Assembly: GCA_910575155.1 (NCBI GenBank)
Contig: CAJTDX010000034.1
Location: 1-33,499, forward strand
Direction of reading: 5' to 3'
DNA length: 33,499 nt
Source: Lachnospiraceae bacterium
GTDB lineage: Bacteria; Bacillota; Clostridia; Lachnospirales; Lachnospiraceae
Within the stretch, counting starts at the first letter, position 1. Every line of letters begins with the position of its first letter. The translations under genes and the position numbers were made by a program. Of this stretch, positions 1 to 33,499 are shown piece by piece. Under the pieces are notes generated by a model, which made no database searches, had not been told where the DNA came from, and worked only from the letters and a program-made list of their open reading frames with translations.

Positions 1-2
1 AT

Positions 3-83
3 TTTTTGACTGGTTTGTCAGGTGTTTTTGAGAAAAAAGTGGGTGATTTTTTGAGACAGAGGTCTGAAAGCCCCATGAAATAA
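3..83 (+). CDS. Possible C-terminal tail of an upstream gene cut by the window edge
   Basis: One reading frame is open from the first bases to a TAA at 81-83 and would encode about 26 residues ending in ESPMK. The other two forward frames close within about 30 bases. The tail lies about 50 bases before rsfS, a spacing that would fit the last gene of the same operon. There is no recognisable domain in so short a piece, and the open frame may be chance. I cannot name the protein. Confidence 0.25.
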   Translation, partial: FLTGLSGVFEKKVGDFLRQRSESPMK

Positions 84-131
84 GGGCTGAAGATTCCGAG
101 AAGTTATTGAATTAAAAAGGAGGAAACAGCG

Positions 132-31741: not shown

Positions 31742-32221
31742 ATGAAAATATCCGTCCTGACAGTGGGAAAAATAAAAGAAAGCTTTTATAAACAGGCGAT
31801 AGAAGAATTTCAAAAACGTCTGGGCCGTTACTGTAAATTAGAGATCATTGAAGTGGCAGATGAAAAAACGCCTGATTGTGCCAGTGCGGCTGAAGAAATG
31901 CAGATTAAGGAACGGGAGGGGCAGAGATTGCTGAAATATATCCGGGAAGACGCCTGGGTCTGCGCGCTTGCAATTAGCGGAAACATGATGGATTCTGAGG
32001 AATTGTCTGAAAAGATTGAAAAACTGGGAATTCAGGGGATCAGCCACATCCAGTTTGTGATTGGAGGCTCGCTTGGATTGTGTGATTCTGTTTTAAAACA
32101 TGCTGATTTTAAATTGAGTTTTTCTAAAATGACTTTTCCGCATCAGTTGATGCGGGTAATTTTGCTGGAACAAATTTATCGAAGTTACCGGATTATGCGC
32201 AAAGAGCCATATCACAAGTAA
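31742..32221 (+). CDS. rlmH: 23S rRNA (pseudouridine-1915-N3)-methyltransferase RlmH
   Basis: A 159-residue SPOUT-fold methyltransferase (known as OrfX in staphylococci) that methylates pseudouridine 1915 in helix 69 of 23S rRNA. The SAM-binding knot reads FVIGGSLGLCD, and the end FPHQLMRVILLEQIYRSYRI with final PYHK is the universal C-terminus. AAGGAG lies 12 bases before the ATG, slightly long spacing. The 3' end of this gene is the classic integration site of SCC elements, and here a diverged second copy of that end lies 1.1 kb downstream. Confidence 0.96.
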   Translation: MKISVLTVGKIKESFYKQAIEEFQKRLGRYCKLEIIEVADEKTPDCASAAEEMQIKEREGQRLLKYIREDAWVCALAISGNMMDSEELSEKIEKLGIQGISHIQFVIGGSLGLCDSVLKHADFKLSFSKMTFPHQLMRVILLEQIYRSYRIMRKEPYHK

Positions 32222-32231
32222 GGGCGAAAGG
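32205..32231 (+). repeat. Direct repeat copy 1: 3' end of rlmH (att-like)
   Basis: The 27 bases spanning the last codons of rlmH (PYHK, TAA) plus AGGGCGAAAGG match the segment at 33313-33339 at 23 of 27 positions. All four differences are transitions, three at third codon positions and one changing the stop TAA to TGA. See copy 2. Confidence 0.8.
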
Positions 32232-32295
32232 ATCACTGATTGAGAGAAATGTTTTTTCTTCTCATATTTCAGCTAAGTGAATTTTTATATTGCCA

Positions 32296-32329
32296 TAACC
32301 ATCTGAACTGACAGAAAGCTGGTTATTTT
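32296..32329 (+). terminator. Weak terminator-like hairpin after rlmH
   Basis: TAACCA (32296-32301) pairs with TGGTTA (32320-32325), with TCTG/CAGA inside and TTTT just after. It would end rlmH transcription before the next gene. Confidence 0.4.
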
Positions 32330-32355
32330 GAAAGAATAAAAACCATAAAAGCAAA

Positions 32356-33186
32356 TTGCTGAATGATTGTAATTTAGCAGGGGACTGTGTATACAGACAA
32401 ACAAGCTGGGAAGAATTAAGCATATCCAATGATTTCCTGTTTGGGAAGGTCATGCAGAACCCAGAACTCTGTAAAGAATTGATACAGAGAATATTGCCGG
32501 ATTTAAAGATAGACCGCGTAGAATACCCAGAACTACAAAAAAGTATCAAACAGGATATGGACGCAAAAAGTGTCAGGTTGGATGTATATGTAAAAGATGG
32601 GAAGGAAGTTGTTTACGACATAGAAATGCAGGTAAGCGATACAAAAGAACTGCCAAAGAGAAGCAGATATTACCAGAGCATGATAGACTTGCAGCTTATT
32701 GATAAAGGACAGTATTATGATGAATTAAACAGAAGCTATGTTATCTTTATCTGTCCGTTTGATGCATTTGGAAAAGGCAGGCATATCTATACCTTTGAAA
32801 ATATCTGTAACGAAGATGACAGCATTTCTATGGGAGATGAAACAGTAAAGATATTTCTGAACGCAAAAGGAATCATGGATGATGTCAGTAAAGAATTAAA
32901 GGCATTTCTTGATTACATAGCTGGTAAAAAACCAGCAGATTCCTATGTGGAGAAATTGGAAGAAGCGGTGAAAGAAGCAAAGAAAAACAGGGAATGGAGG
33001 CATGAATATATGACGTTGTTAATGCGTGACCAGGAGAATCAAAAAATTGGAGAAAAACATGGAGAAGATAAATTGGCTAAACTGATAATATTATTAAATG
33101 AAGATGGACGGTTATCTGATATTCTCAGAGTATCGCAGGATGAAGTATATCGTCAGGAACTTTATGAGGAATATCATATTATTTAA
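32356..33186 (+). CDS. Rpn-family PD-(D/E)XK nuclease-like protein
   Basis: Up to 276 residues. The N-terminal part SWEELSISNDFLFGKVMQNP and the nuclease core D76 (VRLDVYV) with E90-x-Q92 (YDIEMQ) fit the Rpn/PDDEXK family, formerly called transposase_31; members promote RecA-independent recombination or act in phage defence. The C-terminus (GRLSDILRVSQDEVYRQELYEEY) is the usual family end, so the 3' side is complete. The start is doubtful: no ATG occurs before the conserved core and the TTG at 32356 has no ribosome site. The frame stays open back to a TGA at 32329-32331, with lysine/asparagine-rich codons that look like a normal N-terminus whose start codon has been lost. Confidence 0.75.
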   Translation: MLNDCNLAGDCVYRQTSWEELSISNDFLFGKVMQNPELCKELIQRILPDLKIDRVEYPELQKSIKQDMDAKSVRLDVYVKDGKEVVYDIEMQVSDTKELPKRSRYYQSMIDLQLIDKGQYYDELNRSYVIFICPFDAFGKGRHIYTFENICNEDDSISMGDETVKIFLNAKGIMDDVSKELKAFLDYIAGKKPADSYVEKLEEAVKEAKKNREWRHEYMTLLMRDQENQKIGEKHGEDKLAKLIILLNEDGRLSDILRVSQDEVYRQELYEEYHII

Positions 33187-33200
33187 GTGAGAAAGTAACA

Positions 33201-33230
33201 GGCAGAGCATACCAAAATGTTCTGCCTTAT
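33201..33230 (+). terminator. Terminator after the Rpn-like gene
   Basis: A 10-bp stem with one G-T pair, 33201-33210 and 33217-33226, six-base loop, followed by TTATT. Confidence 0.55.
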
Positions 33231-33312
33231 TGCATTTCAAATTTATGCGAGATGATAACATTTCAAAAAGATTTATTTTTAAGCAATTTAAGCACTTAGG
33301 CATGTTATGGAC

Positions 33313-33339
33313 AGCCGTACCATAAGTGAGGGCGAAAGG
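33313..33339 (+). repeat. Direct repeat copy 2: second rlmH 3'-end sequence
   Basis: Read in the same frame as the end of rlmH this copy encodes QPYHK and a TGA stop, followed by the identical AGGGCGAAAGG. No rlmH body precedes it. Together with copy 1 it brackets about 1.1 kb carrying only the Rpn-like gene. Confidence 0.8.
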
Positions 33340-33499
33340 GAACAGAGGTTCAGGCAGAAGAAAGGGAATATGGAATGCATTATAACTTCTCGGAATCTCA
33401 ATGAATGAGATTCCAACCGAAGATTGACAACTGAATATCGTGCAGGAAAAGAAATTTGAGAAAAATGGACATAAACATTGGACATAGCGGGTACTATGC
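33340..33499. other. Non-coding end of window with a perfect short inverted repeat
   Basis: No convincing gene is seen between the Rpn-like gene and the window edge (33187-33499). Apart from the terminator and rlmH-end copy 2, it holds a perfect 9-bp inverted repeat, 33392-33400 and 33406-33414 (GGAATCTCA and its complement), with a five-base loop and no T-run. A 33-codon frame from 33307 is not supported. Confidence 0.4.

Follow-up and report, generated by a model that had tools for sequence, protein, structure and literature searches.

Cassette chromosomes are known chiefly in staphylococci and enterococci, and the staphylococcal cassettes that insert in rlmH spread methicillin resistance. 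In this work we have analysed a stretch of 33,499 nucleotides from a Lachnospiraceae bacterium, called here the window, which is an entire contig (C34) of a 4.19-Mb assembly (its own genome in what follows), and in which the end of rlmH is found twice. Does the second end mark an SCC-like insertion targeted to rlmH, as a first reading of the sequence alone had proposed, and which of the options offered by that reading fits the 1.1-kb segment between the two ends: a remnant, a cassette that is mobilised passively, or a member of a longer tandem array? Our analysis makes it highly probable that a composite cassette-chromosome array lies at the 3΄ end of rlmH and that the unit in the window is its proximal one, shortened by internal deletion. 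The features concerned are collected in Table 1 (C, G and L numbers designate contigs, genomes and loci).

Table 1. Positions of the features discussed in the window, with the 142-bp unit of other loci
Feature	Position	Strand	Basis
rlmH, with the putative upstream attachment site at its 3΄ end	31742..32221	+	ORF; Pfam SPOUT_MTase, 196.9 bits
Putative attachment site in the rlmH end	32204..32231	+	sequence; dyad centre from 59 distal sites
SymE-like gene, 3΄ remnant (KLVILKE-stop)	32316..32339	+	alignment with C47, L094, L096, G007, G015
ORF of an Rpn-family nuclease, lacking the native start but otherwise intact	32356..33186	+	TIGR01784, PDDEXK_2
Deletion junction	32393..32394	.	DNA alignment, five relatives; protein alignment, three
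GGAGG and in-frame ATG	32996-33000, 33010-33012	+	sequence only
Putative distal dyad attachment site	33281..33342	+	alignment with 59 distal sites
Inferred left end of the following unit	33340..33381	+	similar sequence 3΄ of rlmH in several congeners
Insertion sequence, left end	33382..33499	-	matches on C3, C12
142-bp unit between two sites	L090:13368-13510, L093:1920-2062, L098:832-974, L110:937-1079, L113:13368-13510		

The repeated end of rlmH and its dyad

The two copies, AGCCATATCACAAGTAAGGGCGAAAGG (32205-32231) and AGCCGTACCATAAGTGAGGGCGAAAGG (33313-33339), are identical at 23 of 27 bases; the four mismatches are transitions only, and both copies encode PYHK followed by a stop. The repeat exceeds chance. 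When the downstream 1268 bases were dinucleotide-shuffled 300 times, the 27-mer never matched at more than 19 of its 27 positions; shuffling the entire window 12 times gave a top match of 18, and a 25-base degenerate pattern derived from the window pair, with up to three mismatches, matched the own genome at those two places only, where the backward-control pattern gave no match. The repeat, its transitions and its shared PYHK-stop are thus as the sequence-only reading had described them.

The repeat looks like the attachment site of a recombinase. With a consensus pattern at up to eight mismatches we gathered 59 distinct distal sites, which were aligned without gaps. Complementarity between the two halves of these sites peaked at 0.573 at one centre, against 20–35% at 12 others (best 0.351), a peak that is partly built in, since the collecting pattern contains part of the dyad. 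The peak stays at this centre when only pairs with the right base outside the pattern are counted (0.484, the next reaching 0.381); of 708 pairs of this kind 343 are complementary, where site-permuted sets average 301, and none of 2000 permutations reached 343, relatedness of the sites being ignored. The dyad centre falls at the codon that precedes the final PYHK of rlmH and AGGGCGAAAGG forms the right arm of the dyad, so that the bases shared beyond the stop codon, already pointed out in the first reading, can be described more precisely as an arm of the putative recombinase site. In the distal site of the window the left arm, GCACTTAGGCATGTTATGG, lies at 33292-33310 and is followed by the presumed crossover CA (33312-33313), the core CCGTACCATAAGTGA and the right arm GGGCGAAAGG. 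As GGGCGAAAG is also found 3΄ of rlmH in an island-free genome (G001), this arm may in part be native to the host.

In rlmH the codon that precedes PYHK specifies Glu, Gln or Ala, and its first two bases are the centre of the dyad. The central dinucleotide of the 59 distal sites is GA in 44 and CA in 11; in the rlmH site of the window the presumed crossover is GA (32204-32205), the first two bases of a Glu codon. Serine integrases are described as exchanging strands efficiently only with parallel alignment at the central dinucleotide (PMC3783163, in part). The presumed crossover bases of rlmH and of the first distal site agree at 14 of 20 loci (expected 9.8, P 0.026, relatedness ignored), which is weak evidence for exchange at the dyad centre, and disagree in the window and at five more of the 20. 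The 59 aligned sites provide a sharp, testable prediction of the position of strand exchange.

Could the second repeat belong to a conserved RNA? Distal-type repeats are found beside many different neighbours in other genomes, and window positions 32100-33499 gave no Rfam match at E ≤ 1; therefore the repeat is not part of a known RNA, an alternative that the first reading had itself suggested checking.

A probable deletion derivative and the proposed array around it

No recombinase ORF was seen in the bracketed 1.1-kb segment, which carries an Rpn-like gene; this earlier description stands with the refinement that the Rpn ORF lacks its native start. The ORF scores 119.5 bits with TIGR01784 (cut-off 52.1) and also matches Pfam PDDEXK_2, and PADLOC returned nothing for it. 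The earliest start codon of the ORF, TTG, lies 5΄ of the deletion junction, at which the upstream region, the ribosome site, the ATG and the first codons present in C47, L094, L096, G007 and G015 are missing. The 24 bases of the remnant between the end of rlmH and Rpn are the final codons of the SymE-like gene of complete relatives, and because this remnant is kept, the unit looks like a deletion derivative of an island, made of two sites, a SymE-like end and a start-less Rpn, whose start was removed by a second deletion. The SymE-like end and the lost Rpn start speak for a remnant: the unit in the window is degraded and not autonomous. Internal starts have been reported in rpn genes (PMC10327210, in part), and the GGAGG and ATG inside the window Rpn could be a candidate internal start for a short RpnS-like product.

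The sites of the window mismatch at the presumed crossover (GA in rlmH, CA in the distal site), and direct excision of this first unit is therefore unexpected if the crossover assignment holds; unit 1 may be locked in place. A second unit, flanked by CA and CA, could in principle excise. It is found on contig C47, where an Rpn unit with a doubled 3΄ part is followed by the same arm, a third core and then carB; the doubled end reads as if C-terminal ends had been swapped between tandem copies.

How is C47 placed with respect to the window? The last bases of the window are the left end of an insertion sequence, and window positions 1-107 are the right end of another copy, so that contig C34 is bounded by insertion-sequence ends; since the window stops inside this sequence, the missing continuation is an assembly break. 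A Pfam search at E ≤ 0.01 gave no match for its transposase or for five other proteins. Left ends with flanks are found on C3, on C12 and at the end of C34, and right ends with flanks at the start of C34, on C47 and on C90, with another at the end of C3. Among the presumed 4-bp duplications, TGAA pairs C3 with the start of C34, and CATT, the presumed target duplication at 33378-33381, pairs the end of C34 with C47, which reads ...TTAT|CATT; the leftover pair, C12 and C90, shares no duplication. Of the 28 stretches searched, many of which end early, three have carB 3΄ of rlmH, at spacings of 0.06 kb or, if its start is as in relatives, about 150 bases in G001, 2.5 kb in G004 and 12.2 kb in G014. 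The 4-bp duplication and the rlmH-carB gene order suggest that C47 follows C34, in the order rlmH, unit 1, site, insertion sequence, unit 2, site, carB. The longer tandem array past the window that the sequence-only reading had envisaged is consistent with the second Rpn unit and the third repeat on this contig. That reading had also advised looking downstream for a recombinase as well as a third rlmH-end copy: the copy is on C47, taken as the next contig, and a recombinase of the island type was not found in the own genome at E ≤ 1e-60. Positions 331-1361 of the C47 locus (L067) hold an Rpn copy and then a different 3΄ third of an Rpn gene.

The sequence between the second copy and the insertion sequence is mostly the left end of an element, an assignment that is partial, a short part of it being also present in the island-free G001. 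That the second copy and positions 33340-33381 are the ancestral rlmH flank was considered and rejected, as similar sequence lies 3΄ of distal sites in other genomes and of complete islands.

Complete islands and small units in relatives

In our sample of the genus, 28 of 29 genomes have rlmH, and up to 20 kb downstream of it was taken in 27 of them and in the window, 21 of the 28 stretches reaching at least 2 kb. The distal core with the conserved left arm is present in 7 of the 28, window included, and in none of them on the opposite strand; an eighth congener, G018, has a weaker arm, and its unit holds a different gene. Complete islands lie between rlmH and the distal copy in G014 (9.2 kb) and G025 (15 kb). 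Both have the same gene order: DUF1643, two nameless ORFs, a PrimPol/helicase-like protein of 831–834 aa, a large serine recombinase of 560–565 aa, a SymE-like protein, Rpn and the distal site. At its C-terminus the SymE-like protein matches SymE weakly (E 0.00082 for that of G025, below the cut-off; 5e-10 for the relative on C54). For the 831-aa protein, its profile and the profile of a 508-aa helicase-like protein, a sequence search of the PDB at E ≤ 0.01 gave no match; the fold matches of the 831-aa model, whose confidence is low, include viral D5-type helicases and SaPI primase-helicases. The first reading had asked for related strains with an empty site; in G001, which belongs to another species of the genus, carB comes directly after rlmH with no island.

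The recombinase of G014 scores best with the NCBIfam model for CcrB (388 bits), followed by CcrC (367 bits), both models having cut-offs of 900 bits, and two further island recombinases score 398 and 375 bits with CcrB. By comparison, two other serine recombinases of the genus score 236 and 237, and two from the own genome 101 and 110. The island recombinase is best described as Ccr-like and as no named Ccr, because its CcrB and CcrC scores are far below the curated cut-offs. Among plasmids, the recombinases nearest to that of G014 are those of Staphylococcus, with 37% identity (12 records in all). Complete relatives, in the same genus and beyond it, thus have a Ccr-like recombinase between like repeats, and the proposal of an SCC-like insertion at rlmH is upheld by them.

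How widespread are these islands? A scan of named genomes, relying on two short peptide patterns of the recombinase, gave 31 loci, with record titles naming Lachnospiraceae, Clostridiaceae, Clostridium, Proteiniclasticum and others; rlmH lies inside the retrieved DNA for 12 of them. A distal site was found 3΄ of the recombinase in 24 of the 31 loci (anywhere in 27, on the other strand in none), at a spacing of 1.3–1.8 kb in 18 of the 24, and of the seven loci with no site after the recombinase five end within 1.4 kb and two (L091 and L111) do not. The arm-plus-core pattern is present in 16 of 397 genomes of the family, whereas the backward control matched in 1 of the 397. Across genera the site type is sparse: among the 42 further genera (of 114) whose rlmH is most similar, one (G041) has a site 3΄ of the gene, none of the 40 sampled genera other than those of G041 and G135 has one (35 of these 40 stretches reach at least 2 kb), and the 13 pattern-matched genomes having rlmH carry the site 3΄ of that gene in four cases (G041, G323, G084 and G300), with G208 a fifth by position. 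The cargo of the island of Clostridiaceae bacterium 14S0207 (L101:1337-3211) includes a restriction enzyme of type II together with a methyltransferase. Positions 301-10794 of L071, on contig C54 of the own genome, hold a distant second module with a helicase-like protein, a large serine recombinase, DUF1643 and a SymE-like protein.

Units far smaller than these islands are recurrent. Distances between neighbouring sites, paired by script, range from 51 bp to 15 kb; units of 1.1–2.1 kb lie between sites in the window and in G007, G016, G041, G084, G300 and G323, and a unit of constant length, 142 bp, exists in five distinct versions that are 76–99% identical, in G135, in G310 (at least two genera) and in named genomes. 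The 142-bp unit is either a minimal cassette or a regulatory scar. Is the window unit, then, a true passively mobilised mini-cassette of two sites and one defence gene and not a decaying remnant? The recurrence of small units and the exact length of the 142-bp unit in five versions speak in its favour, but the start of the window Rpn is lost, its flanking sites have unlike presumed crossover bases, and the own genome has no cognate recombinase at E ≤ 1e-60, and we consider this reading rather unlikely.

Origin of the repeat and relation to known cassettes

Copying of the rlmH tail by homologous recombination or segmental duplication, independently of any site-specific recombinase, is very improbable: the window lacks a recombinase, and the enterococcal cassette chromosome (ECC) is described as able to move also by homologous recombination between insertion sequences (PMC6222049), but the distal copies are preceded by a conserved arm that is not rlmH and they end islands with a Ccr-like recombinase gene. 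Slightly less probable still is that the second repeat is no attachment site but conserved sequence 3΄ of the genes of a dispersed Rpn family, as C47 shows the same flank behind another Rpn copy, but this flank alone is contradicted by islands that end in the same dyad with no Rpn detected there (L089, L092 and L101), as well as by an Rpn copy on C19 of the own genome that has no such flank and by the different gene of the G018 unit.

We propose for the preferred reading, a deleted unit of a cassette-chromosome array, that a Ccr-like recombinase would exchange strands at the dyad centre, at two bases of the codon before PYHK, and so insert a circular element at rlmH. By the SCC scheme, the element would give rlmH a new PYHK-stop tail and the displaced old tail would become the distal site. 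The first reading had taken the second copy either for the rlmH end of another species or for a kept attachment site. The dyad supports an attachment site, and by the SCC scheme the delivered tail would be the one within the gene. Repeated insertion beside an existing site would build arrays, and deletions between related Rpn copies would also build them and shrink units to the end gene and the sites; a unit with no recombinase would need the cognate enzyme to act in trans. A tentative extension, to which we give limited credence, is a clostridial integron-like system at rlmH, in which Ccr-type islands might act in trans, minimal cassettes (a single defence gene or the 142-bp unit, between compatible sites) might be gained, lost and stacked, and the codon before PYHK might set compatibility.

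The family is a clostridial branch of the rlmH cassette chromosomes, a new variant. Two features of cassette chromosomes are found in the window unit, insertion at the 3΄ end of rlmH and direct repeats with a dyad in the distal site; a ccr gene is absent from it, and a Ccr-like gene is present in its relatives. In the SCC elements as partly described by Rice 2023 (PMC10061031), the insertion at the end of rlmH, the large serine recombinase, the composite arrays and the flanks with degenerate inverted repeats including the last rlmH codons are all similar, and DUF1643 is listed among the conserved genes of SCCmec (PMC6222049, in part). Differently from SCC, the hosts are clostridial and there is a single CcrB/C-like gene, with 375–398 bits to CcrB where the cut-off is 900; in contrast to SCCmec with its PolA-SSB primase, the islands have an 831-aa PrimPol/helicase-like protein, and Rpn is often distal. 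The ECC, according to part of its description (PMC6222049), shares the site in rlmH, sites of about 50 bp, inverted repeats in the distal site, the conserved TATCATAA and several distal sites (in 16 of 32 ECC), whereas it has ccrAB and spans 21–78 kb, and the clostridial units have one recombinase or none and span 0.1–15 kb. The other rlmH islands of Bacillota in Rice 2023 were, in the part of the source that concerns them, detected via PolA-SSB primases, and its C. difficile and C. perfringens examples sit in ssrA. A search of open-licence PMC papers, judged by title and abstract, gave no elements from Lachnospiraceae, the nearest being those of Rice 2023 and of the ECC paper. The presence of a family using the rlmH site in gut Lachnospiraceae and Clostridium points to a larger reservoir of recombinases that target rlmH and of their attachment sites.

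The Rpn genes-within-genes toxin-antitoxin systems, as far as their partial description goes (PMC10327210), resemble the window gene in the Rpn family, in the candidate internal start and in a variable C-terminal part, as in Rpn defence genes, here with GEKx-type repeats. They differ in that the genes studied here lie at cassette ends and the window copy has lost the start of the long form. Rpn genes are described in part of the same source as not autonomously mobile, and cassette ends may be a recurrent vehicle for them. In some other genera (L152, L144, L183 and L191), an inverted copy of the rlmH end adjoins rlmH as a hairpin-like repeat.
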